A model generated the notes under the pieces. The model had not been told where the DNA came from. It searched no databases and saw only the letters and a program-made list of their open reading frames with translations. From positions 1 to 37,133 of the forward strand of contig CAMVDK010000002.1 in NCBI GenBank assembly GCA_947166165.1: a stretch of 37,133 bases of DNA. The letters are read 5' to 3'. This document shows positions 15,226 to 30,108 of the stretch, piece after piece (position 1 is the stretch's first letter; every line of letters starts with the position of its first letter). The translations under genes and the position numbers were made by a program. The DNA is from an uncultured Porphyromonadaceae bacterium. GTDB lineage: Bacteria; Bacteroidota; Bacteroidia; Bacteroidales; Muribaculaceae.

Positions 15226-17436
15226 ATGAAAAAATTGCTTACCCTTTTGGCCGGTGGCCTGCTGACGCTGAGCGCGGTGGCCATTCCTGCCGACCCGCGT
15301 CCGCTGGTGGTGGACCAGCCCGATGGCACGCAGGTCACGCTTCGCCTGCGCGGCGACGAGTTCTATAGTTTCAGGACCACCATCGATGGCTACACGGTGC
15401 TTCGTGGTGCCAGCGGCGCGTGGGAGTATGCCCGCAGCGAGAACGGCCGCCTTCTGCCCACCGGCGTGGTGGCTCACGATGCCGCCTCGCGCACTCCCGC
15501 CGAGGTGATGCTGCTGGCGGCCACCGCGCGTGGCCTGGTCGACGTGCCGGGAGTCGGGGCGTCGAAGGTGGCGCGCGCCGAGGCGCAGTGGCCCGACCGT
15601 GTGCGCAAAATCGACCTCGACAAGTTTCATGGGCTCATCATCCTGATTGAGCCGTCGGACGTGTCGTTCAGCATGGGCGATCAAGCCAATAAGTTCTACG
15701 ACGAGATGGTCAATGCCAAGAACATGACGCAAATCAGTTTCGGCAACTATGGCTCGTGGACGGGCAGCGTGCGCGACTACTTCTACGACAACACGATGGG
15801 CGTGTTCGACCCGCATTTCGACATTGTGGGCCCGGTGAAGGTGAGCCAGGCGTCGACCACCTTCCGCAACAACAACCGCCAGGCGTTCAACGAGGCCTTG
15901 CGCAAGGTTGAGATTGACATCGACTTCACGCAGTACGACGGCGACGGCGACGGCGTGGTCGACAACGTGTGCTTCGTGGTGGCCGGCTATGGGTCGCATT
16001 CGGGCAACGATGAGGGCCTGCTGTGGCCTCACGAGAGCTCGAGGCTGGGCGATGGAGGCCGCTATGACGGCGTGAAGCTTGACAAGTATTCCTGCTCCAC
16101 TGAGATGGGCGGCACACCCTCCTATGGCTATGTGGACGGCATCGGCACCTTCTGCCATGAGTTCACCCACGTGTTGGGCTTCCCCGACCTCTACGACACC
16201 GACTATGAGCTAGGCGGCGGGCAGTCGCACGACCCTGGCGACTGGGACCTGATGGCCAGCGGCTCGTATCTGAACCGCAGCCGCACGCCGGCCGGCTATG
16301 GCATCTTTGAGCGTTATGCGCTCGGATTCGCCAATCCGCAATACATCACCGAGGTGGGCAGCTACACGCTCAACCCGCTGGGCGAGAGCAACGAGGGCCT
16401 GATTCTGCGCACGCCGCAAAACAAGGAGTACTTCATCATGGAGAACCGCCAGAAGTCGTCGAAGTGGGACAAGTATCTGCCCGGCAGCGGCATGCTGGTG
16501 ACGCGCGTCGACTCCACGACGGCCTATCTGTGGACCACCAACAAGGTGAACTGCAACCCTGCGCACATGTACTATGAGATGCTCCGCGCGGGCAACACCA
16601 CCAGCGGCTCGCGCGCCAGCGACCCCTTCCCCGGTTCGGCCGGTGTGCCGGTCATCACCAACGAGTCGACGCCCAGCCTGGTGACGTGGAGCGGAAAGCA
16701 GAACTCCTACTCGATTCTCGACATCACCTCTGCCAACGGCGTGGTGAACTTCCTGGTGGCGCAAGCCGGCGAGGAGACGATGCTCTATGAGACCTTCGAC
16801 CGCATCCCCATCACCACCACCACGACCACCGAGGCTGAGGGCGACATCGCCTCGTGGAAGCTGTCGCTGTGCCATGCGGTGCGCGTGGCAACCCGCGACC
16901 GTGCCATCGAGATGAAGAATCCCAGTGTGGCCCAGATGACCACTCCGGTCTATTGCGACGTGCGCATGGTGTCGGTGCTGGCCACCAACACCTCGGGCGA
17001 CGCCGCCAAGATTGCCCTGCAGTACAGCACCGACGGCGGCAGCAAGTGGACGTCGGCCAAGACCTACAGCGGCGCCACCACCTACAGCGTGCCAGGCACC
17101 ACCGAGCAGAATGTGTACTGGAACGTGAAACTGACCAAGGACCAGCCCGTGATGTTCCGCCTGCAGATGACCGGCGGCAGCAAGACGGCTCCCTGCATGC
17201 TCAACGACCTGATGATTTACTACACCGGCGAGCCTGGCGGCCCCGACCCGGGCATGCGTGGCGACGTGGACAACAACGGCGTGGTGGACATCGACGACAT
17301 GAACCTGATCATCAACATCATGCTCCACAAAGCCGAGGCCAGCGACTATCCCGGCCAGGCCGACGTGGACGGCAATGGCGTGGTGGACATCGACGACATG
17401 AACATCGTGATCAACATCATGCTGCACAAGGAATAA
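15226..17436 (+). CDS. Secreted M6-type metalloprotease with dockerin-like tail, array member 1
   Basis: 736 residues. M6 enzymes (immune inhibitor A family) are zinc endopeptidases. A signal peptide (MKKLLTLLAGGLLTLSAVA) and a propeptide-like region ('QPDGTQVTLRLRGDEFYSF') precede the catalytic domain. The zinc motif HEFTHVLGFPD is at 311-321 (HExxHxxGxxD) and a Met-turn candidate at Met343 ('DWDLMASG'). A calcium-type loop DGDGDGVVD starts at Asp238. Residues about 520-675 look like a beta-sandwich accessory domain. Residues 679-736 hold two intact dockerin-type loops (DVDNNGVVDIDD and DVDGNGVVDIDD), each followed by 'MN(L/I)(I/V)INIMLHK'. Catalytic residues appear intact. It is first of four tandem paralogues and is closest to member 2 in its catalytic domain but to member 4 in its tail. 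Confidence 0.92.
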   Translation: MKKLLTLLAGGLLTLSAVAIPADPRPLVVDQPDGTQVTLRLRGDEFYSFRTTIDGYTVLRGASGAWEYARSENGRLLPTGVVAHDAASRTPAEVMLLAATARGLVDVPGVGASKVARAEAQWPDRVRKIDLDKFHGLIILIEPSDVSFSMGDQANKFYDEMVNAKNMTQISFGNYGSWTGSVRDYFYDNTMGVFDPHFDIVGPVKVSQASTTFRNNNRQAFNEALRKVEIDIDFTQYDGDGDGVVDNVCFVVAGYGSHSGNDEGLLWPHESSRLGDGGRYDGVKLDKYSCSTEMGGTPSYGYVDGIGTFCHEFTHVLGFPDLYDTDYELGGGQSHDPGDWDLMASGSYLNRSRTPAGYGIFERYALGFANPQYITEVGSYTLNPLGESNEGLILRTPQNKEYFIMENRQKSSKWDKYLPGSGMLVTRVDSTTAYLWTTNKVNCNPAHMYYEMLRAGNTTSGSRASDPFPGSAGVPVITNESTPSLVTWSGKQNSYSILDITSANGVVNFLVAQAGEETMLYETFDRIPITTTTTTEAEGDIASWKLSLCHAVRVATRDRAIEMKNPSVAQMTTPVYCDVRMVSVLATNTSGDAAKIALQYSTDGGSKWTSAKTYSGATTYSVPGTTEQNVYWNVKLTKDQPVMFRLQMTGGSKTAPCMLNDLMIYYTGEPGGPDPGMRGDVDNNGVVDIDDMNLIINIMLHKAEASDYPGQADVDGNGVVDIDDMNIVINIMLHKE

Positions 17437-17600
17437 TGCACAATGCACAATTTCGCAATGCATAATTGAATGCACAATTTACAATGAGGCTGTTTTAGGA
17501 CTTAAGAACATAAGAGTTTAGAAAGGAACAAAAGAATCATTTTGTCGATTGGGAAAAAATAATCTTTTGTTCTTATGTCCACTCGAATATAAAGGCTTTT
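17434..17600. repeat. AT-rich short tandem and inverted repeats
   Basis: 17434-17486 is built from imperfect repeats of 'AATGCACAATT' and 'AATGCATAATT'. After it, GAACAAAAGA (17526-17535) pairs with TCTTTTGTTC (17563-17572), and variants 'GAACATAAGA' and 'TTTTGTTCTTCT' lie on either side. The inverted repeat could end transcription of array member 1; I see no gene here. Confidence 0.5.
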
Positions 17601-17697
17601 GTTCTTCTGTCTTCATTCGCACAGTTCTGTGCATGATTTGAGTGTTGTGTGACTATTTAACTACTTGAACCTCAACAAACTATTATAGATTTAGAAA

Positions 17698-19908
17698 ATG
17701 AGAAGATTTCTGGCAATGTTGGCCGTGGTGGCGATGGTGCTTGGCGCCAGCGCCCGTCCGGCCCACCGTATGGCTGTGGCCATTCCGCAGCCCGACGGCA
17801 CACAGGTCACCCTGCAGCTGCACGGCGACGAGTTTTATCACTTCAGCACCACCACCGATGGCTACACCGTGATGCAGAACAGCGCGGGCTACTGGGTGTA
17901 TGCTCAAAGCGTGGGCGGCAGGTTGGTGCCCACCAGCCAGGTGGCGCACGACGCCGCTCAGCGCGACGCCGCCGAGCAGGCACTGCTGGCCGTCACGCCG
18001 CGCGGCCTGACCGACGACTTGAGCGTGGCCGACAGCAAGCGCGCCCGTGCCGCCGTGCAGGGACCGGCGCGCGCGTCGTTCGACTTCACCAAGTTCCGCG
18101 GACTCATCATCCTGGTGCAACCCAGCGACATTGAGTTCAGCATGGGCGCCGACGCCAACCGGTTCTATAACACCATCGTCAACCAGGAGGACATGACCTC
18201 GGTGGGCTTCGGCAACTATGGCTCGTGGACGGGCAGCGTGCGCGACTACTACCGCGACAATTCGATGGGCGTGTTTGCGCCTGAGTTCGACATCGTGGGC
18301 CCCATCAAGGTGAACTACAAGGCCACGCAGATTGGCAACTACTATGGCCAGGCGTTCCGCCAGGCGCTCAACAGTGCCAACGCGCAGGTCGACTACTCGA
18401 AATATGACGGCGACGGCAACGGCGAGGTAGACATGGTGTTCTTCCTCGTGGCCGGCAACACGGCCGCCGTGGAGGGTAACGAAAATCTGGGCTACCTGTG
18501 GCCTCACGCGAGCTCGGGCATCGGCGCCGGCACCTACGACGGCAAGCGCATCAGCCGCTACGCCTGCTCCACCGAGCTCAATGGCCCGGTCGACTATTCG
18601 TTTATCGACGGCATTGGCACCATCTGCCACGAGTTCACCCACGTGCTGGGCTTCCCCGACCTCTACGACGCCAACTACGCTACCGACGGCCTGGCCCACG
18701 ACCCGGGCGACTGGGACATCATGGCCGCAGGCACCGACCTCAACTACGGCCGCACGCCGGCCGGCTACAGCATCTTTGAGCGCTACACCTTCGGCTTTGC
18801 CAACCCCCAGGTGCTCAACGTGATGGGCGAGGGCGCGTACACGCTCAACTCGCTGGCCGAGAGCAACGAAGGCTTCATCCTGCGCACACCGCAGAACAAG
18901 GAGTACTTCATCATGGAGAACCGCCAGAAGACCTCGAAGTGGGATGCCTACCTGCCCGGCCACGGCATGCTGGTGACGCGCGTCGACTCCACCAACACCT
19001 ACTACTGGACCGTGAACCAGGTGAACAACAACGCCTCCCGCATGTACTACGAGCTGCTTCGTGCCGGCAACACCAGCACGGGCGCACTGGCCAGCGACCC
19101 CTTCCCCGGCACCTATGGCGTGGCCGCACTCACCAACACCACCCAGCCGAACCTGAAGACCTACAGCGGCCGTGCCTGCTCCTACATCATCACCAACATT
19201 GCCGAGAGCAATGGTGTGATTTCGTTCAACCTCAAGACACCCGGCAACGAGAAGACGCTCGTTGAGACCTTCAACCAGATTGGCGAGAGCACCGAGAACA
19301 TCTACGAGGCGCAGGGCGACATCGCGCTGTGGCGACTGGCGCAGTGCCAGAGCGTGGTGGTGGACGGCACCAACCGCGCCGTGGCGATGAAGAACCCCAG
19401 CGTGCTGCAAATGCAGGAGCCCATCTACTACAACATCGAGCAGGTGACCTTCGAGGTGAACAACACGTCGAGCGTCGCCGCCAAGATTGCGCTGCAATAC
19501 ACCGTCGACGGCGGCAAGAAGTGGAACAATGCCAAGACAAGCACGGGCGCCACATCGTTCAGCGTGGCCGGCAACGCGGCCATCACCACCTACTGGGCCG
19601 TGGAGCTGAGCAACATGCAGCCCACGCAGTTCCGCATCCAGATGACCGGCGGCAGCAAGACGGCCCCCATGCAGGTGGACAACTTCACCGTCTACTACAC
19701 CGGCGAGCAGGGACAGGGAACAACCTATGAGACTGGCGACGTGAATGGTGACGGCGTGGTTGATGTCAATGATATCAACATCCTGATTAACATCATCCTC
19801 GAGCGCGACAGCGCCGACAACTATGACGGCCGTGCCTACATCGCAGGAGGAACCACGGTGAGCATCGAAGACTTGAACATGCTGATCAACATCATGCTCA
19901 CTCAATAA
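17698..19908 (+). CDS. Secreted M6-type metalloprotease with dockerin-like tail, array member 2
   Basis: 736 residues. Signal peptide MRRFLAMLAVVAMVLGASA, then the shared propeptide-like motif 'QPDGTQVTLQLHGDEFYHF'. Zinc motif HEFTHVLGFPD at 311-321, Met-turn candidate Met342 ('DWDIMAAG'), calcium-type loop DGDGNGEVD in the same place as in member 1. The accessory domain ends in 'QVDNFTVYYTGE'. The tail (680-736) has one good calcium loop, GDVNGDGVVDVNDIN, but the second repeat lacks the Asp ladder ('AYIAGGTTVSIEDLNMLINI'). This asymmetric tail matches member 3, not its catalytic sister member 1. It lies 261 nt after member 1 and 78 nt before member 3. No exact promoter match is found in the gap. 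Confidence 0.92.
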   Translation: MRRFLAMLAVVAMVLGASARPAHRMAVAIPQPDGTQVTLQLHGDEFYHFSTTTDGYTVMQNSAGYWVYAQSVGGRLVPTSQVAHDAAQRDAAEQALLAVTPRGLTDDLSVADSKRARAAVQGPARASFDFTKFRGLIILVQPSDIEFSMGADANRFYNTIVNQEDMTSVGFGNYGSWTGSVRDYYRDNSMGVFAPEFDIVGPIKVNYKATQIGNYYGQAFRQALNSANAQVDYSKYDGDGNGEVDMVFFLVAGNTAAVEGNENLGYLWPHASSGIGAGTYDGKRISRYACSTELNGPVDYSFIDGIGTICHEFTHVLGFPDLYDANYATDGLAHDPGDWDIMAAGTDLNYGRTPAGYSIFERYTFGFANPQVLNVMGEGAYTLNSLAESNEGFILRTPQNKEYFIMENRQKTSKWDAYLPGHGMLVTRVDSTNTYYWTVNQVNNNASRMYYELLRAGNTSTGALASDPFPGTYGVAALTNTTQPNLKTYSGRACSYIITNIAESNGVISFNLKTPGNEKTLVETFNQIGESTENIYEAQGDIALWRLAQCQSVVVDGTNRAVAMKNPSVLQMQEPIYYNIEQVTFEVNNTSSVAAKIALQYTVDGGKKWNNAKTSTGATSFSVAGNAAITTYWAVELSNMQPTQFRIQMTGGSKTAPMQVDNFTVYYTGEQGQGTTYETGDVNGDGVVDVNDINILINIILERDSADNYDGRAYIAGGTTVSIEDLNMLINIMLTQ

Positions 19909-19925
19909 CACAGAATCCATAGTCG

Positions 19926-19950
19926 GGGGCGGGCCGTTGCGTCTCGCCCC
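19926..19950 (+). terminator. Hairpin between array members 2 and 3
   Basis: GGGGCG (19926-19931) pairs with CGCCCC (19945-19950), 13-nt loop, followed by TTGACTTT. A weak terminator or attenuator; it may also protect the 3' end of the upstream transcript. Confidence 0.45.
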
Positions 19951-19986
19951 TTGACTTTCACCAAAATTCAATAATCATTCCTCGAA

Positions 19987-22224
19987 ATGAAGAAATTATT
20001 TGCTTTGTTAACTTGTGCGGCAGCCGCGTTGCTGCTGCACGCAGTGCCTGCGCATCGCATGGCAGTCAATGTTGCCCAACCCGATGGCGACAGCCTCACC
20101 ATCAGTCTGGTGGGCGATGAGTACTATCATTACAATACCACTATCGACGGCTACACGGTCGTCAACACCGGCCACGGCTGGGAATATGCGCGTCTGGCCG
20201 GCCAACGCCTGTCGTCGACGGGTGTGCTGGCCCACAATGCCTCGCGCCGCAGCGCCAGCGAGCAGGCCCTGCTGGCCTCGCTCGGCCGCCACCTCACCGA
20301 CCGCGCCCAGGTGGAGAGCGGGCTGCAGGCCCGCCGTGCCCGCGACGCCCGCAACCAGCGGCCCAACCGCGAGCCGGTGGTGGACTACAGCAGCTTCCGC
20401 GGGCTGATTGTGCTCATCAACTTCAACGACAAGTCGTTCCTGATGGACGACCCGCACGCCTTCTACGACGACATGGTCAACACCAAGGGCTTCACGGGCT
20501 ACTACACCGGCACAAGCTGGTGGAACCGCCGCTTCAACGAGTGCTACGGCAGTATGCGCGACTACTTCTCCGATCAGTCGATGGGCGTGTTCGACCCGCA
20601 GTTCGACGTGGTGGGGCCGGTCGACGTGCCCTATTCGTGCCGCGAGTGTGGCGACAACTATTCCACCATCTTCCGCGCGGCCCTCGACGCCATCGACGAC
20701 CAGGTCGACTTCACGCGCTACGACAGCGACAGCAACGGCGAAATCGACATGGTGTTCTTCATGGTGGCCGGTTATGCGGCCAGCTACAGCGGCAACAGCG
20801 ATGACTATCTGTGGCCGCACATGAGCTACCTCTACGGCCGTGACCCGCAGAGCGGCTATTACTATTATCTGCAATACGACGGCATGTACATGGGCCGCTA
20901 TGCGTCGTCGACCGAAATCTACGGCTGGGAGTCGTATGGCATGACCGGCGCGGCGGGCATCGGCACCATGTGCCACGAGTTCAGCCACGTGCTCGGCCTG
21001 CCCGACCTCTACGACACCGACTACAGCAGCGGCGGCGGCCAGAGCAACGACCCCGGTGACTGGGACGTGATGGCCGGCGGCAGCCACGCCGACCAGGGCC
21101 GCAACCCCGTGGGCTACAGCCTGTGGGAGCGCCACGAGCTGGGATGGACCGAGCCGCAGGCCATCAATCACGCTGGCAACTACGAGCTCACCGACGTGAG
21201 CAAGAGCAACCAGGGATATGTGATGGCCACGCCGGTGGCAGGCGAGACGTTCTACTTCGAGAACCGCCAGCAGAGCAAGTGGGACAGCGCGCTGCCCGGC
21301 CACGGCATGCTGGTGGCACGCGTCGACCGCACCAACCAGGACATCTGGGACAGCAACCGCGTGAACGCCAACCCGAGCCACAATTATTACGAGCTCGTCC
21401 GCTCGGGAGGCAGTGCCGAGCGCACCACCTTCCCCGGCCCATCGGGCGTGACGGCCCTCAGCCAGGACACCGACCCCGCGCTGCTCACCTGGAACGGCAC
21501 GCCGTGCGACTTCGCGCTGAGCAACATCGCCGAGACCGGCGGCAAAATCACCTTCACCGTGGTGGCTGAGCAGCAAATGGACAACGTGGTGGAAGACTTC
21601 GAGACCATGCCCCTGACCACCGACCCGATGGCCACCGGCCTGAGCGGGCGCTTTGCCGCGTGGAACTTCACGCAGACCCTCGTGGTGCGCGACGAGCACT
21701 TCGGCTCCACGCGCGAGTGCGCCATCGCCATGCCCGGCGCGCTCGCCATGGCCACCGACGTGCAGGGCAACATCGCCCTGGTGAGCGTCGACGCCTTCAA
21801 CCCGTCGTCGACACTTGCCAAGCTGCAGCTCTACTACTCCACCGACCAGGGGGCCAGCTGGAACGCCCTGGGCGCGCAGGAAGTGCCTGCCGGCGAGACG
21901 GTGAACCTGGTGTGGCGCACCGTGCAGAAGCAGCCCGTGCGCTTCCGCCTGACGCGCACCGCCGGCAGCAAGACGGCCAACCTCTATGTCGACAACCTGG
22001 CCATAGGCTGCTACGGCGAACTCACCCACGACGAGCTGCCCGCCCTGCGAGGTGACATCGACGGCAACGGGACGGTCGACATCGAGGACGTGAACATCCT
22101 CATCAACATCATCCTCGAGCGCGACAGCGCCGACAACTACGGCGGCCGCGCCTACGTGGTTGGCGGCGACACGGTGAGCATCGAGGACGTGAACGCTCTG
22201 ATCAACATTCTGCTGGCCAACTGA
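19987..22224 (+). CDS. Secreted M6-type metalloprotease with dockerin-like tail, array member 3
   Basis: 745 residues. Signal peptide MKKLFALLTCAAAALLLHA, then 'QPDGDSLTISLVGDEYYHY'. Zinc motif HEFSHVLGLPD starts at His330, followed by 'DWDVMAGGSH'. The calcium-type loop reads DSDSNGEID. The segment 'CRECGDNYSTIFRAALD' is shared only with member 4 and places two Cys in the catalytic domain. The accessory domain begins near 'VVEDFETMPLTTD'. The tail (689-745) has one good loop (GDIDGNGTVDIEDVN) and a degenerate second repeat ('AYVVGGDTVSIEDVNALINI'), as in member 2. A 35-nt stretch of the tail is identical to member 2 at DNA level (22105-22139 and 19789-19823). The catalytic domain is closest to member 4. 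Confidence 0.92.
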   Translation: MKKLFALLTCAAAALLLHAVPAHRMAVNVAQPDGDSLTISLVGDEYYHYNTTIDGYTVVNTGHGWEYARLAGQRLSSTGVLAHNASRRSASEQALLASLGRHLTDRAQVESGLQARRARDARNQRPNREPVVDYSSFRGLIVLINFNDKSFLMDDPHAFYDDMVNTKGFTGYYTGTSWWNRRFNECYGSMRDYFSDQSMGVFDPQFDVVGPVDVPYSCRECGDNYSTIFRAALDAIDDQVDFTRYDSDSNGEIDMVFFMVAGYAASYSGNSDDYLWPHMSYLYGRDPQSGYYYYLQYDGMYMGRYASSTEIYGWESYGMTGAAGIGTMCHEFSHVLGLPDLYDTDYSSGGGQSNDPGDWDVMAGGSHADQGRNPVGYSLWERHELGWTEPQAINHAGNYELTDVSKSNQGYVMATPVAGETFYFENRQQSKWDSALPGHGMLVARVDRTNQDIWDSNRVNANPSHNYYELVRSGGSAERTTFPGPSGVTALSQDTDPALLTWNGTPCDFALSNIAETGGKITFTVVAEQQMDNVVEDFETMPLTTDPMATGLSGRFAAWNFTQTLVVRDEHFGSTRECAIAMPGALAMATDVQGNIALVSVDAFNPSSTLAKLQLYYSTDQGASWNALGAQEVPAGETVNLVWRTVQKQPVRFRLTRTAGSKTANLYVDNLAIGCYGELTHDELPALRGDIDGNGTVDIEDVNILINIILERDSADNYGGRAYVVGGDTVSIEDVNALINILLAN

Positions 22225-22244
22225 CCGGCGCAAACCTAACCACA

Positions 22245-22283
22245 TTGGCCTAAGCGGCGCGGGCCCCGCACCGCTTGGGCCAA
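22245..22283 (+). terminator. Hairpin between array members 3 and 4
   Basis: 13-bp stem: TTGGCCTAAGCGG (22245-22257) with CCGCTTGGGCCAA (22271-22283), one T-G wobble, and a 13-nt GC-rich loop. It starts 21 nt after the stop codon. No T run follows. Confidence 0.65.
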
Positions 22284-22310
22284 CCAACAAATAAAAAGTA
22301 TTAAGAATAG

Positions 22311-24542
22311 ATGAAAAAACTTGTCACCTTGTTGGCCGGCGCCGTGGCAGCCCTCGCGCTGCACGCCATTCCCGCCGACCCCACGCCCGTCCGTGTCGGC
22401 CAGCCGGGCGGCGACAGCCTCACGCTCAAGCTGGTGGGCGATGAATTCTACCACTACAACGCCACTACTGACGGCTACACCGTGCTCCATACCGGGGCGG
22501 GGTGGGAGTATGCCTGCCTGACGGGCGGCCGCCTGGCCCCCACCGGCGTGCTGGCCCACGACGCCGGCCGCCGCACCGCCGCCGAGCAGAGCCTGCTGGC
22601 CACGCTCGCCCGCCACGTCACCGACCGCGCTGCGGTGCAGACGGGCATGCTCGCCCGCCGTGCACGCGACACCCGCAACCAGCGTCCCAACCGCGCCGCG
22701 GTGGTGGATTACAGCAAATTCCGCGGCCTGATCGTGCTCATCAACTTCACCGACAAGAAGTTCCTGATGAATGACCCCAATGGCTTCTACAGCGACATGG
22801 TGAACACCAAAGACTATGAAGGCTACTACACCGGCACCGGAGCCACGGCGCGTCTCAACCGGTGCACGGGCAGCATGCGCGACTACTTCTACGACCAGTC
22901 GATGGGGCAGTTCGACCCGCAGTTCGACGTGGTGGGGCCCGTCGAGGTGCCTTTCTCGTGCCGCGAGTGTGGCGAGAACTATTCCACCATCTTCCGTGCT
23001 GCCCTCGACAGCATTGATGCGCAGGTCGACTTCACCCAGTATGACAGCGACAGCGACCATGGCATCGACATGGTGTTCTTCATGGTGGCGGGCTACTCGG
23101 CCAGCTACAGCGGCAACAGCCAGGAGTACCTCTGGCCGCACATGAGCTACCTGTATGGCTACGATGCTGAACACGACCGGTGGGAGTTCCTCACCTACGA
23201 CGGCATGGCGATGGGCCGCTATGCGTCGTCGACCGAGATTTATGGTTGGGAGTCGTATGGCCAAACTGGTCCTGCGGGCATTGGCACCATGTGCCATGAG
23301 TTCAGCCACGTGCTCGGCCTGCCCGACCTCTACGACACCGACTACGAGGATGGCGGCGGCCAGAGCAACCATCCAGGCGACTGGGACGTGATGGCCGGTG
23401 GAAGCCACGTCGACCAGGGCCGCACCCCCGTGGGCTACAGCCTGTGGGAACGCAGCGAACTGGGGTGGGCGATTCCCGGCAAACTCGACGTCGAGGGGCA
23501 GTACACGCTCACCGACATCAGCAAGAGCAACGAGGGCTTCATCATGCAGTCGCCCGTCGAAGGCGAGATTTTCTACTTCGAGAACCGCCAGAACACCAAG
23601 TGGGACCGTGCGCTGCCCGGCCATGGCCTGCTCGTGGCGCGCGTCGACCGCACCAACCGCCGCATTTGGGACTGGAACCGCGTGAATGCCGACCCCAGTC
23701 ATAACTATTATGAGCTGATACGTTCGGCCTTTTCGGAGCAGAACACCACCTACCCCGGCCCGACGGGAGCCAACGAGCTGAATGCCATCAGCAATCCGCC
23801 ATTGGCCACTTGGAATGGCACGGTGTGCCCGCTGGGCCTGACGAATATTGCCGAGACCGATGGCGTGATTACCTTCGACCTCGGTTCGCTGGGCGAGCTC
23901 AACAGCGTGGTGGAGGACTTCGAGGCGATGGATACCACCGTCGATGTGAAGGTGACCGGTGTGCAGGGCAACTTTGCGGTGTGGGATTTCGTGCAGGCTA
24001 ATGTGGCCAACGACGAGCACTTCGCCTCGGCGCGTGAGTGCAAGATGGCCATGCCGTCGACCATGACAATGGTCAGCGATTTCGACGCCGACGTGTATCA
24101 AATCACCCTCGATGCCTATAATCCCTCGAGCCAGGATGCCAAGTTCCAATTGTCCTATTCGTTCGACAAGGGAGCCACGTGGAAGAGTCTGGGCAATTCT
24201 GTGACTGTGCCAGGCCTCGAGACGTCGCAACTGTCGTGGCGGCCTAAGTTCCGCCAGCCGTTCCGCTTGCGCCTCACGCGCAATGGCGGCAACAAGAACC
24301 TGCCGGTCTACATCGATAATCTCACCATCAACTTCATCGGCGAGCAGCGCGTGGCCGAGGGTGTCAAGGGCGATGTGGACGGCAACGGCGTGGTGGACGT
24401 CGACGACCTGAACATCATCATCAACGTCATGCTGCGCAAGGCCACGCTGGCCCAATGGCCCCAGGCCGACGCCGACGGCAGCGGCGAGGTGGACATCGAC
24501 GACCTGAACATCGTCATCAACATCATGGTGCACAAGGACTGA
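22311..24542 (+). CDS. Secreted M6-type metalloprotease with dockerin-like tail, array member 4
   Basis: 743 residues. Signal peptide MKKLVTLLAGAVAALALHA, then 'QPGGDSLTLKLVGDEFYHY'. Zinc motif HEFSHVLGLPD starts at His329, followed by 'GDWDVMAGGSH'. The calcium-type loop is altered to DSDSDHGID, losing one Gly position seen in the other three. 'CRECGENYSTIFRAALD' is shared with member 3. The accessory domain runs from about 'VVEDFEAMDTT' to 'NLTINFIGE'. The tail (687-743) has two intact calcium loops (GDVDGNGVVDVDDLN and ADADGSGEVDIDDLN), like member 1 and unlike the adjacent member 3. It lies 86 nt after member 3 and 98 nt before the LRR gene. Confidence 0.92.
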   Translation: MKKLVTLLAGAVAALALHAIPADPTPVRVGQPGGDSLTLKLVGDEFYHYNATTDGYTVLHTGAGWEYACLTGGRLAPTGVLAHDAGRRTAAEQSLLATLARHVTDRAAVQTGMLARRARDTRNQRPNRAAVVDYSKFRGLIVLINFTDKKFLMNDPNGFYSDMVNTKDYEGYYTGTGATARLNRCTGSMRDYFYDQSMGQFDPQFDVVGPVEVPFSCRECGENYSTIFRAALDSIDAQVDFTQYDSDSDHGIDMVFFMVAGYSASYSGNSQEYLWPHMSYLYGYDAEHDRWEFLTYDGMAMGRYASSTEIYGWESYGQTGPAGIGTMCHEFSHVLGLPDLYDTDYEDGGGQSNHPGDWDVMAGGSHVDQGRTPVGYSLWERSELGWAIPGKLDVEGQYTLTDISKSNEGFIMQSPVEGEIFYFENRQNTKWDRALPGHGLLVARVDRTNRRIWDWNRVNADPSHNYYELIRSAFSEQNTTYPGPTGANELNAISNPPLATWNGTVCPLGLTNIAETDGVITFDLGSLGELNSVVEDFEAMDTTVDVKVTGVQGNFAVWDFVQANVANDEHFASARECKMAMPSTMTMVSDFDADVYQITLDAYNPSSQDAKFQLSYSFDKGATWKSLGNSVTVPGLETSQLSWRPKFRQPFRLRLTRNGGNKNLPVYIDNLTINFIGEQRVAEGVKGDVDGNGVVDVDDLNIIINVMLRKATLAQWPQADADGSGEVDIDDLNIVINIMVHKD

Positions 24543-26194: not shown

Positions 26195-26238
26195 CGCTTC
26201 AGCCTGAGGGGGGCCGTGTGCCCGCCTGTTGACCTAGA

Positions 26239-26285
26239 CGGTTTTGGCCGCAACGCATAACTTTGCGGCCAAAACCGTTTTTTTT
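26239..26285 (+). terminator. Strong Rho-independent terminator ending the dockerin block
   Basis: Perfect 13-bp stem CGGTTTTGGCCGC (26239-26251) with GCGGCCAAAACCG (26265-26277), 13-nt loop, then eight T (26278-26285). The next gene's ATG starts at 26287. The loop contains TAACTTTG (26258-26265), a match to the -7 box, but without a -33 box at the right distance. Confidence 0.92.
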
Positions 26286-26286
26286 C

Positions 26287-28164
26287 ATGCACAACGACCT
26301 GAGCGAAATCTACCATGAGAACCAGCGCCGGCTGCTGGCGCGGCAGTCGGCCTACGACCCGCTCACGGGCGCCGGCTGCTGCGGCGAGCGGGTGCCGGTG
26401 GGCGGCGAGTGGCTGCCGCGGGCCGTGATCGACGAGGCACCGGCCTACGCCACGCTGCCCGAGCTCGAGCGCCGCCGCCTGCGCGTGCGCCACGACTTTG
26501 AATACTGGTGCGCCACGTGTGCCACCGTGCGCGACAAGACCACCGGCCGCGCGGTGCCCTTCGTGCTCAACGCCCCACAGCGGCGCCTGGCCGCCGAGAT
26601 GGAGCGCCAGCGGCTGGCACACCGGCCCATACGCGTGATTCTGCTCAAAGCCCGGCAGTGGGGCGGCTCCACGCTCGTGCAGATGTACATGGCCTGGATG
26701 CAGCTCGTGCGCCACAAGGGCTGGAACAGCCTCATCGTGGGCCACAAGCGGCAGTCGTCGCGCTCCATCAAGGGCATGTACAACCTGCTGCTGCGCCACT
26801 ATCCGGCCGAGCTGGCCGAGCTGGCCGACGGCCCGCTGGCGTTCCGCAACTTTGAGGGCGGCAACACCGTGCAGCAGCTCGCTGCGCGCGAGTGCCTGGT
26901 GGTGATGGGCTCGTCGATGAATGGCGACGACGTGCGCGGCTATGCCATCGCCATGGCCCATCTCACCGAGGTGGCCTACTGGCGCGACTCGCCGCTGCTC
27001 TCGCCCGACGACGTGATGCGCAGCGTGAACGGCACCGTGGGCCTGCTCGACGACACCGTGGTCGTGCTCGAGTCGACGGCCAACGGCATGGGCAACTACT
27101 TCCACACCGAGTGGCTGCGCGCCTCGGCCGGCAAGAGCGACAAGACACCCGTGTTCGTGCCCTGGCACGAAATCGAAATCTACCGCTCGCCCGTGCGCGA
27201 CCTGGCGGCCCTCTGGCAGACCATGGACCCTTACGAGCGGCAGCTGTGGGACGACGGCCTCACGCTCGAGCAGATACAGTGGTACCACGACAAGCGCCAG
27301 GAGGCCTCGAGCCATGCCGCCATGATGGCCGAGTTTCCCACCACGGCCACCGAGGCGTTTGCCTGTTCGGGCTTCTCGGTGTTCAACCTCGAGAGTCTAG
27401 AGCGGCTGCGTGGGCTGTGCCGACCGCCGCTCGACGTGGGCGACGTGGCCGCCGACTACTGCACGCTGCGCAACATCCGCTTCGTGCACGATGCCGTGGG
27501 GCTGTTCAAGGTGTGGTGCTTCCCGCAGCCCGACCAGCGCTATCTGGTCACCGTCGACGTGGGCGGACGCTCCGACAAGGCCGACTACTCGGTGGTGGCG
27601 GTGATACGCGTCACCGACGTGGAGCATCGGCCGCCCGAGGTGGTGGCCCAGTGGCGCGGACACATCGACCGCGACCTGCTCGCCTGGAAGGCCGCCCAGA
27701 TTGCCGAGTACTACCGCCACGCGCTGCTCGTGGTGGAGAGCAACACCTACGAGACCCACTGCAACGACCCCGGGGCCGGCAGCTTCGTGCTCGACGTGCT
27801 GCGGGGCACTCGCGTGAACCTCTATGTGCGCGACTCCGGGCGCGCGGGCTTCCACACCGACCGCAGCAACAAGTATGGCATGATCCAGTACCTGATTGGG
27901 GCCGTGCGCGACCTCACCTATGTGGAGCGCGACACGGGCGCGGTCGACGAGATGGCCGTCTACGAGAGCCGGAGCAATGGCAGCTACGCCGCGCGGCGCG
28001 GCCACCACGACGACATCCTGATGACGCGCGCCATAGCCCTGTGGGTGCTGAAAATGGAGCCCGGGCTGCGGCCGCCGCGGCGCGCCACCGTGGACAAGGG
28101 CGACCTGCCCACGCTGGCCGGTCCGCAGGTGGGCAATCTGTGGGAGGGCCTCGCGCAAAGCTGA
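26287..28164 (+). CDS. terL: Phage-type terminase large subunit (ATPase and nuclease)
   Basis: 625 residues from the ATG at 26287; an in-frame TTG at 26263 lies inside the terminator and is unlikely. TerL is the motor that packages phage DNA and cuts concatemers. Walker A-like 'KARQWGGST' is at 121-129, the Walker B/catalytic segment 'AMAHLTEVAYW' ends at 232 (Glu228), and the coupling motif 'VLESTANGMGN' follows. 'FVPWHE' marks the usual linker. The nuclease domain keeps its acidic residues: 'VTVDVGGRSDKAD' (Asp424), 'VVESNTYE' (Glu484) and 'HHDDILMTRAIAL' (Asp575/576). Nothing suggests decay. Yet no small terminase, portal, protease, capsid or integrase gene is nearby, and base composition resembles the host. 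It may be a domesticated gene or part of a remnant. The next gene starts 51 nt downstream. Confidence 0.88.
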   Translation: MHNDLSEIYHENQRRLLARQSAYDPLTGAGCCGERVPVGGEWLPRAVIDEAPAYATLPELERRRLRVRHDFEYWCATCATVRDKTTGRAVPFVLNAPQRRLAAEMERQRLAHRPIRVILLKARQWGGSTLVQMYMAWMQLVRHKGWNSLIVGHKRQSSRSIKGMYNLLLRHYPAELAELADGPLAFRNFEGGNTVQQLAARECLVVMGSSMNGDDVRGYAIAMAHLTEVAYWRDSPLLSPDDVMRSVNGTVGLLDDTVVVLESTANGMGNYFHTEWLRASAGKSDKTPVFVPWHEIEIYRSPVRDLAALWQTMDPYERQLWDDGLTLEQIQWYHDKRQEASSHAAMMAEFPTTATEAFACSGFSVFNLESLERLRGLCRPPLDVGDVAADYCTLRNIRFVHDAVGLFKVWCFPQPDQRYLVTVDVGGRSDKADYSVVAVIRVTDVEHRPPEVVAQWRGHIDRDLLAWKAAQIAEYYRHALLVVESNTYETHCNDPGAGSFVLDVLRGTRVNLYVRDSGRAGFHTDRSNKYGMIQYLIGAVRDLTYVERDTGAVDEMAVYESRSNGSYAARRGHHDDILMTRAIALWVLKMEPGLRPPRRATVDKGDLPTLAGPQVGNLWEGLAQS

Positions 28165-28215
28165 GCATCTGTTTTTTCGCATTTCCGTTCAATCATCAAA
28201 ACCTTCTATCTTATC

Positions 28216-30108
28216 ATGAACACCACCAATCTTCGCAATCATTCCACAACGGGCGGCTTCGAGGTTGTCGGCCAGCCCGTGGCCGCTGGCCAAGTGCCTG
28301 CCGGTCATAGTCTTGTGCTTGTCGACGGCAACCGTTACCTCACTGCCTCGCAAGGCCGGCTGTGGTGCGGCGGGCAGGAGCTGTGTGCCATTGCCGGCGA
28401 GCTGCTCGGGGTGCACCGCGTGGGGCCCTTTGTGGTTGTGGCCGGCACGCAGGGCGCGGTCTATCTGGCCGAGCAGGGCGGCGCGCTCGTGCCGGCCGAC
28501 GTGACGGCGGCGCGGCCATCGCTCACCCTCACCCAGCAGGCCGCCGCCCCGCTCACCGTGGGCGTGCCCGCGCTGGCCTTCGCCGAGCCTTACAGCCGCT
28601 GGCAGGCCCCTCTGCGCCAGCCCGATGTGACCGCCATCACCGCCGCGCTGCGGGCGGCCTGGACCACCGTCACCGGCCAGGCGCGCACCGCCGGCAGGCA
28701 CTATGCGCCGTGCCGCGTGCGCTATGGCGTGAGGCTCTGGGACGACTCTTACCTCTGGCTCAGCGACCCGGTGGAGCTGGGCGGCAACACCCTCGCCGGG
28801 GCGGCCTCGCTCACCGCCGAGGCCACCACCGATGGCGGCGACGTCACCGGACTCGAGGCCACCACGCTCAGCCTGCCCACGTTCACCATCGGCATTGCCG
28901 TGGGCGGCGGGGTGGGGCAGCAGTGGCGGGCGATGGTCAAGGCTGTCGACGTGCTCGCCACCGCGCCGGCCACCCTCGTGCAGTCGACGGCCGTGGTCGA
29001 CTATCACGTGCGCAACACCAGCGGTGGACAGCGCCTGGCGATGCTCGATTGGGCCTTCCCCGTGAGCTCGTTGGCGCAGGTGCAGGCCGAGCTCGACGGC
29101 AGCGCGTGGCAGGTGGTGGCCTCGACCACCGACCTCGACGCCCTGGCGCAGGGGTGCTGGCAGGACAGCGGCCACTATCCCTCCACGCCGCTCAGCGCCG
29201 CTCAGGCGCGTGCCGTCGACGAGGCCACTGCCCAGGCCTCCACGCGGCGCCTGGTGGCCACGCTGGTGTGCAACGGCCGCCTCTATGCCGCCGACGACCG
29301 TGGCCTGATGACCACCAGCCTGCCCGCCAACCCGCTCGTGGTGGAGCGCCAGTGCGTGGTGACGGGCAGCGCGGTGGTGGGTCTGGCCGCCGTGCCGCGC
29401 TCGCTCTACTCCGGAGGCTTTGGCCGCTACCCGGTCTACCTGTTCACCACCGAGGGAATCTTCGCCCTGCCGCTCACCGCCCAGGGTGCCTACGGCGAGC
29501 CACGGCTGCTGAGCCGCGAACTGCTCGCCGCCGGTATGCGCCCCGTGGAGGCCGACCGCGACGTCTACTTCACCACCGCCCGCGGCCACCTGTGCCGCCT
29601 GCGCGGCAGCGAGGCCACGGTGGTGGCACGGGGCGTGGCCATGGGCAGCATGGTGTGGGACGATGAGCACCGCGAGCTGTGGTGCCTCGACTCAATGGGC
29701 CGGCTGTGGGCGCTGCTCGACGATGGCCATCTCGACCGCCGCACGCTCACCGCCGCCCACCTCTGCAGAGCCGAGGGCCAGGCCCTGGCGGTGGAGGCCG
29801 GCGGCACTGTGCGCGACCTCACCACCGAGCAGCCGGCGGTGGTGGATGTGGAGTGGCTCAGCGACGCCGTGGCCTGCGCAGCGCCGCCCCGCGAGGTGGA
29901 GTGGCACGTGTATGGCGACCAGCTGCGGCTGCGCTTGCTCCTGCTCGGCGAGCGCGGAGTGAGCTGCCACGGGTTCATCGTCGGCGAGCTCAACGTGGAG
30001 GGGCGCTTGGGTGCTCCGCTGCGCACCCCCGTGTTCGCGCCGCCCCTGCGCACCCTGCGCCGCCACATCACCGGGCAGGCCGCCACCGGCACGCTCATCA
30101 TTCCGTGA
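28216..30108 (+). CDS. Uncharacterised protein downstream of terL, propeller-like repeats
   Basis: 630 residues, no signal peptide, so cytoplasmic or virion-type. I do not recognise the family. The C-terminal half contains recurring beta-blade-like units: 'GRLYAADDRGLMTTSL' (about 355-370), 'YPVYLFTTEGIFALPL' (about 400-415), 'DVYFTTARGHLCRL' (about 450-463) and 'RELWCLDSMGRLWALLDDG' (about 487-505). The N-terminus has similar elements ('LWCGGQELCAIAG', 'GAVYLAEQGGALV'). Propeller folds with this kind of repeat occur in phage tail-plug proteins of the P22 gp10 type, so a structural or DNA-retention role is possible, but this is only a hypothesis. It lies 51 nt after terL, probably co-transcribed, and ends before an independent promoter. 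Confidence 0.75.
   Translation: MNTTNLRNHSTTGGFEVVGQPVAAGQVPAGHSLVLVDGNRYLTASQGRLWCGGQELCAIAGELLGVHRVGPFVVVAGTQGAVYLAEQGGALVPADVTAARPSLTLTQQAAAPLTVGVPALAFAEPYSRWQAPLRQPDVTAITAALRAAWTTVTGQARTAGRHYAPCRVRYGVRLWDDSYLWLSDPVELGGNTLAGAASLTAEATTDGGDVTGLEATTLSLPTFTIGIAVGGGVGQQWRAMVKAVDVLATAPATLVQSTAVVDYHVRNTSGGQRLAMLDWAFPVSSLAQVQAELDGSAWQVVASTTDLDALAQGCWQDSGHYPSTPLSAAQARAVDEATAQASTRRLVATLVCNGRLYAADDRGLMTTSLPANPLVVERQCVVTGSAVVGLAAVPRSLYSGGFGRYPVYLFTTEGIFALPLTAQGAYGEPRLLSRELLAAGMRPVEADRDVYFTTARGHLCRLRGSEATVVARGVAMGSMVWDDEHRELWCLDSMGRLWALLDDGHLDRRTLTAAHLCRAEGQALAVEAGGTVRDLTTEQPAVVDVEWLSDAVACAAPPREVEWHVYGDQLRLRLLLLGERGVSCHGFIVGELNVEGRLGAPLRTPVFAPPLRTLRRHITGQAATGTLIIP

Follow-up and report, generated by a model that had tools for sequence, protein, structure and literature searches.

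Scattered podovirus-type particle genes in Bacteroidales suggest a gene transfer agent-like element

Background

The alphaproteobacterial type I gene transfer agents (GTAs; Rhodogtaviriformidae), RcGTA among them, consist of caudovirus-derived genes that are spread over several host loci and vertically kept (PMC9662315); RcGTA itself includes a main head-tail cluster, and its tail measures 49 nm (PMC9662315, PMC6821227). In Brachyspira, a non-proteobacterial gut host, the loci of BhGTA (VSH-1) are probably dispersed and include an endolysin (PMC9662315), and in Faecalibacterium a candidate gut GTA, FpGTA I, with TerL, portal, scaffold and capsid genes was found by long-read sequencing of virus-like particles (VLPs) (PMC12946183). 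The same 2026 gut VLP study reported GTA-like packaging in Bacillota, and lateral transduction rather than a GTA in Bacteroides (PMC12946183). Here we describe a tandem pair of genes, for a phage terminase large subunit (TerL) and a 630-aa partner, in a 37,133-nucleotide stretch of DNA (the window) that is the whole of contig C2 (CAMVDK010000002.1) of the metagenome-assembled genome (MAG) GCA_947166165.1, from an uncultured Porphyromonadaceae bacterium (Muribaculaceae in the GTDB). We report the gene set to which the pair belongs, how it is scattered and conserved, and the promoter that its units share. Judging from sequence comparison, we consider it likely that the pair forms part of a GTA-like particle, derived from a podovirus-type Bacteroidales phage, which has been domesticated, is passed on vertically and has its genes scattered over the host chromosome.

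The Bacteroidales set differs from RcGTA in that even its head, motor and tail genes lie apart, in a podovirus-type ancestor and in its Bacteroidales hosts. BhGTA, which we set apart by its description only, has a flexible non-contractile tail and belongs to an unrelated host phylum, whereas FpGTA I is a single 10.5-kb operon of Bacillota (PMC12946183). No Bacteroidota GTA was found described in the literature searched, which left preprints and most subscription papers outside, and a podovirus-derived GTA in Bacteroidota is apparently undescribed so far.

Results and discussion

TerL, its partner and their counterparts elsewhere in the genome

The TerL gene (26287..28164, forward strand) is intact and encodes 625 aa, with matches to phrog_2 (E=4e-22) and phrog_38407 (E=5e-22). 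A first-pass annotation of the window had proposed that it keeps its ATPase motifs and nuclease acidic residues, and this is borne out: the ATPase motifs are KARQWGGST, HLTEVAYW and ESTANG, and the key residues of both the ATPase and the nuclease (D424, E484, D575/D576) are invariant in ten aligned homologues, including that of Bacteroides phage BKO1-TP3. The Walker-A-like KARQWGGST (residues 121-129; 26647..26673, forward strand) is the same across host and phage TerLs, as are the alignment columns of the four acidic residues of the nuclease domain (D424, E484, D575, D576; 27556..28014, forward strand). A profile search of the genome with PF03237 gave no match because this TerL family falls outside that model.

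The partner gene (28216..30108, forward strand) begins 51 bp after TerL. Its product is full length, as had been noted, matches phrog_32516 (E=9e-17) and is a homologue of gp34 of BKO1-TP3. An AlphaFold2 model (predicted local distance difference test, pLDDT, 87; predicted template modelling score, pTM, 0.73) was compared with the PDB, and the eight best matches were all podophage tail proteins (Kp7, LME-1, P22 gp10, GP4, Sf6 gp8, SU10, Pa223). The predicted fold thus supports a podovirus-type tail nozzle/hub (beta-propeller), in line with the propeller-like partner suggested earlier.

The pair is flanked by a gene for a BspA-type leucine-rich repeat/dockerin protein and a clostripain-family peptidase gene, and its base composition is host-like as first stated, with a GC content at third codon positions (GC3) of 0.90-0.92 matching the 0.84-0.91 of neighbouring genes. 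Portal, capsid, integrase and lysis genes were not found in the window. Since the window is one contig of a 341-contig MAG (2.94 Mb, 83% complete), the absence of further phage genes is valid for this contig only, and the description of the pair as an orphan, correct for the window, does not extend to the genome, where portal, capsid, scaffold and lysis genes lie on other contigs.

These were reached through a compact relative, L109 (Muribaculaceae MAG NALB_7823_26), in which genes for the major capsid protein (MCP), a 174-aa protein, the portal, a 659-aa nozzle-like protein and a truncated TerL adjoin, and whose portal and capsid proteins served as queries against the window genome. The portal query matched a gene at C13:6817-8172 (PF16510, P22-like), with a ParA gene region on one side and a sodium:alanine symporter gene on the other, and the capsid query one at C6:9753-11000 (PF17236, SU10 MCP), which adjoins the gene of a large dockerin protein. 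A 103-aa open frame directly before the capsid gene is a scaffold candidate, homologous to small proteins of relatives that match a phage scaffold family. On C187, behind a promoter box at C187:4551, stands a lysis pair consisting of an 85-aa holin-like protein and a 133-aa N-acetylmuramoyl-L-alanine amidase (PF01510, 2e-18; phrog_822 lysis, 3e-59). Portal (C13), scaffold and capsid (C6) and holin/endolysin (C187) each stand alone amid host genes. Of the explanations first offered for the pair, that of a gene-transfer agent with its other genes elsewhere is favoured by the portal and capsid genes found in the same genome, and that of a defence function has found no support.

A shared promoter element links the scattered units

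General upstream k-mer searches returned mostly coding-region signal, and a form combining box and spacing was then used. An element TTGACCT-N22-TAACTTTG(CGGC) occupies 26229..26265 (forward strand), 22 bp before the TerL start codon. TAnnTTTG is the usual Bacteroides -7 element; its combination in the rare form TTGACCT-N22/23-TAnnTTTG precedes nearly every scattered unit in the window genome and its nearest relatives, and the spacing from TTGAC to TAnnTTTG is 24-25 in 23/23 exact cases before genes of the system. Searching the whole window genome for TTGACN{24,25}TANNTTTG gave only four matches: those before TerL (26229), scaffold-capsid (C6:9081) and holin-endolysin (C187:4551), and an AT-rich site before an unrelated 848-aa gene. 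The portal of this genome has a one-mismatch box with the same spacing.

Genome-wide, all 15 TTGACCT matches in G000, G005, G003 and G014 stand before TerL, portal, scaffold/capsid, adaptor or lysis pair. Within ~400 kb of sequence there are 18 matches with no more than one mismatch, of which 17 stand before system genes; shuffled sequence gives an expectation of 0.3. The genome-wide count is the fairer figure, as the ~400-kb stretches were picked around system genes. In G005 a holin is followed by an M15 peptidase (PF08291) in place of the amidase, behind a one-mismatch box, so that in this lysis unit the enzyme is swapped and the promoter kept. Across the wider genus the exact TTGAC form precedes 18 of 30 portals but few of the TerL copies. 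Other families have a different box, TTATCGCA-N26-TTTGC, found before TerL and portal in G279 and G096 (in the latter as an identical 20-mer before both genes), with close variants of the TTATCGCA box before the scaffold in G103 and G057. In G311, G122 and G064 no such box was found ahead of the system genes.

A strong hairpin of 18 bp with a T-run, resembling an intrinsic terminator (26236..26284, forward strand; arms 26236-26253 and 26263-26280) overlaps the TerL promoter box, with a computed RNA folding energy of -30.5 kcal/mol (z=-7.0 vs shuffles). It probably terminates the upstream BspA/dockerin gene, or may act as a read-through control.

The genes are conserved and co-evolve within the genus

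Among 37 genomes of the genus, TerL is present in 35, the nozzle in 35, the portal in 36 and the capsid in 35, nearly always as a single open copy, and the missing genes fall mostly in incomplete genomes. The TerLs of the genus are 51-70% identical to that of the window; the copy of a goat-rumen Muribaculaceae bacterium (L041) is 70% identical. In related pairs, dN/dS (the ratio of nonsynonymous to synonymous substitution rates), a calculation proposed with the first-pass annotation, is 0.03-0.35 across TerL, nozzle, portal and capsid and 0.11-0.23 for TerL, indicating purifying selection. Although the four genes are mostly unlinked, their pairwise distances correlate (r=0.78-0.97, permutation p=0.001). 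The pair is not confined to full prophages, as its genes are intact without a prophage in nearly every relative; the idea that the two stay together without phage genes holds in the latter respect but only partly in the former, since TerL and nozzle lie on separate contigs in several relatives and their pairing is not obligatory.

These data bear on whether TerL and nozzle could be leftovers of a broken-up ancient prophage, on their way to being lost. In favour of this, the phage derivation of the genes is clear, other Bacteroidales carry complete and compact prophages of the same family (G055, G410, G330, G166:C32), and one capsid gene, in G007, has an internal stop. Decay is nevertheless already contradicted, and in our estimate very improbable, given near-universal, single-copy, open genes in 35-36 of 37 species, the dN/dS values, the invariant catalytic residues, and the joint retention of unlinked, co-evolving genes behind a shared promoter.

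The set is scattered on closed Bacteroidales chromosomes

TerL was found in 36 of 393 sampled Bacteroidales genomes. Four of these (G055, G410, G330, G422) are prophage-like; the remaining 32 fall in seven family codes, at identities of at least 46%, and their sets are mostly scattered. Profiles built from 80 viral loci and run on host genomes found an adaptor (phage gp45 family) in most of these sets, as well as scaffold-capsid-gp46-adaptor operons and gp49. In the closed 3.1-Mb chromosome of G311 the genes stand at 1,132,420 (nozzle), 1,148,852 (portal), 1,392,950 (adaptor), 1,395,204 (capsid) and 1,427,507 (TerL), and in that of G279 (closed, 3.4 Mb) at 2,725,599 (capsid), 2,727,427 (adaptor), 2,758,996 (TerL), 2,772,606 (portal) and 2,774,753 (nozzle). 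In closed or near-closed genomes the set thus spans 52 kb (G279), 297 kb (G311) and ~450 kb (G371), while in control prophages (G055, G410, G330, G166:C32) the same genes lie within ~10-35 kb. Divergently from TerL, G279, G096, G057, G166 and G103 encode a 600-870-aa protein related to the giant internal protein of the phages. The system covers the head (capsid, scaffold, portal), the motor (TerL), the short tail (adaptor, nozzle) and partly lysis, with an internal protein in some families.

Fragmentation or mis-binning of MAGs could produce an appearance of scatter, and the window genome is itself a 341-contig MAG. We consider the probability of such an artefact negligible, because the scatter is seen directly in the closed chromosomes G279 and G311 and in long contigs, and the genes are embedded within contigs, next to housekeeping genes of the host, among them the ParA and alanine symporter genes.

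The surroundings of the genes speak to another possibility, that of a satellite or defective element needing a helper phage, its packaging genes spread by recombination. Some host genomes do hold a complete prophage of the same family as well (G166:C32). Yet the host loci examined showed neither integrase nor replication genes, most genomes have no second copy, and portal, capsid and adaptor genes stand in differing host surroundings even between close species, so that we regard a satellite as highly improbable. The flanks of portal and capsid mostly differ even at this range, and the TerL locus keeps its neighbours in the nearest relatives. The units examined have host genes on either side and do not form a contiguous prophage genome with integration and replication genes.

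Probable origin from phages with a P22/SU10-type head

The nearest named phages are the Bacteroides phages BKO1-TP3, BS-TP4 and BF1-TP2 (PQ571269, PQ571277, PQ571263), all three with a homologous TerL (37-41% identity) and two with a nozzle homologue; BKO1-TP3 also has homologues of portal, capsid, scaffold and adaptor. Together with related IMG/VR contigs they share the P22/SU10-type head and podophage nozzle of the host sets. In BKO1-TP3, however, the virion genes lie in one 65-kb genome with integrase and replication genes and a 5,553-aa internal protein, unlike the host sets, which are scattered and in which the internal protein, where found, has only 600-870 aa.

No close viral copy of TerL or the capsid protein was found: the best TerL is 43% identical among at least 568 IMG/VR relatives, and the best viral capsid match (55%) is in a compact prophage-like contig. 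In a tree of 65 TerL rows the host copies form one clade beside the viral ones (98% support in the Shimodaira-Hasegawa-like approximate likelihood ratio test, SH-aLRT) and group largely by host family code, apart from the phages. This topology fits a single domestication before these families split. The sole row labelled viral within the host clade, L206, has a long branch and a gene order like that of partly clustered host forms. L206 and L207, both IMG/VR contigs, have gene orders resembling partly clustered host sets, and may be host sequence wrongly labelled as viral, or else host DNA that was packaged.

A proposed gene transfer agent-like particle

The definition of GTAs comprises six points (PMC9662315). 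Caudoviricete-derived proteins are represented by TerL, portal, capsid, scaffold, adaptor and nozzle, all of them homologous to tailed-phage proteins by sequence comparison, and endogenisation at multiple loci by contigs C2, C6, C13 and C187 of the window genome and by the closed chromosomes G279 and G311. With the ~65-kb genomes of related phages as a yardstick, the spans in G311 and G371 put the genes too far apart for joint packaging, so the particle cannot be a self-propagating virus. The other points of the definition are mostly vertical inheritance with co-diversification alongside the host, packing of largely random stretches of host DNA, and delivery of that DNA to other cells. As three of the six points are covered in this way and vertical inheritance is partly supported, we call the system GTA-like and not a proven GTA.

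In the mechanism that we propose, a dedicated activator at the TTGACCT box would turn on all units together upon some signal, and a head would be assembled from scaffold, capsid protein and portal. TerL would pack host DNA by headful cutting, adaptor and nozzle would seal the head and form its short tail, the producer cell would be lysed by holin and endolysin, and the packaged DNA would reach sister cells. The most likely use of the particle would accordingly be the packaging of host DNA and its release by lysis. A domesticated particle might have a job other than transfer: it might, for instance, be secreted, filled with DNA or as a killing agent, its capsid might sequester DNA, or its subunits might poison incoming phages of the same family. 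Conservation and co-regulation would suit any use that benefits the host, and related phages infect Bacteroides, which makes interference conceivable; that portal, scaffold, adaptor, nozzle and lysis genes have all been kept alongside a TerL with its ATPase and nuclease residues speaks for DNA being packaged, released and delivered and not for a capsid decoy, and we regard such non-transfer roles as rather unlikely.

Several observations weigh against a GTA-like particle. The system is known here from its genes alone, from which we infer the particle, its packaged DNA and the transfer, and vertical descent was judged by agreement between system genes and by family grouping, not by a host-gene tree. 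The capsid gene of G007 (G007:C52:40712-42024) is broken by an internal TGA stop, reflecting either ongoing loss or a sequence error; the other genes found there are open. Adaptor matches came from 27 of 61 genomes of the genus, and neither a phage-based nor a genus-specific model gave one in the MAG of the window, where the gene is either in the missing sequence or lost. Holin/endolysin matches occur in 22 of 44 genomes, some of them probably prophage copies. No small terminase (TerS) was identified, gp49 being only a candidate and not seen in this genus. Evidence for the promoter comes mainly from the nearest relatives, and in the rest of the genus most TerLs lack it; several other genera of the same family (f1) have partly clustered sets (G170, G392, G332, G061); and the low-carbon amino-acid bias of the alphaproteobacterial-GTA kind is not clear, TerL and portal being slightly lower and the capsid not.

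With these points taken into account, we are inclined towards a fuller form of the GTA-like reading, in which a podovirus-derived GTA would have been domesticated once before several Bacteroidales families diverged, been fully scattered and been rebuilt as a regulon by fixed-spacing boxes (TTGACCT in one lineage, TTATCGCA in others), and would transfer chromosomal DNA between uncultured Muribaculaceae of rumen and gut and their relatives.

Accessory candidates and neighbouring genes

The gp49 family, a candidate small terminase or regulator, consists of proteins of ~135 aa with two repeats of an RFY-type motif (L348:306-713, L364:16531-16935, L379:9718-10212); it accompanies the set in several families and in phages stands directly before TerL or gp50. 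A gp44-like tail protein near TerL in L068 was set aside as a component because of its sporadic occurrence (4 to 6 of 61 genomes). Short copies of its C-terminal end recur behind this large protein (L068:10-2451; also in G001, G004, G014 and G016), and in BKO1-TP3 a reverse transcriptase gene stands beside gp44, which suggests a switchable or diversifying tail-fibre cassette. One partly clustered locus, L373 (G332:C10), has scaffold, capsid, adaptor and portal in a row, but no TerL was found in the genome, which is 99% complete. The window also carries, upstream of the BspA gene, four tandem paralogous genes of ~740 aa each (15226-24542), relatives of which flank TerL in G005, G003 and G014.

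Conclusions

Prophage finders would miss a set in which no two genes need adjoin. In Muribaculum intestinale, VirSorter2 and VIBRANT found no prophage (PMC10197239), a finder result that says nothing on the set in that strain. Bacteroidales dominate mammalian gut and rumen communities and have high rates of gene exchange; if the GTA-like reading is true, a host-owned DNA-packaging particle across several of their families would be a new and testable route of such exchange, which isolates of the affected families could test directly. The scatter of the genes together with a retained common promoter would then clearly exemplify the conversion of a virus into a regulon of its host.

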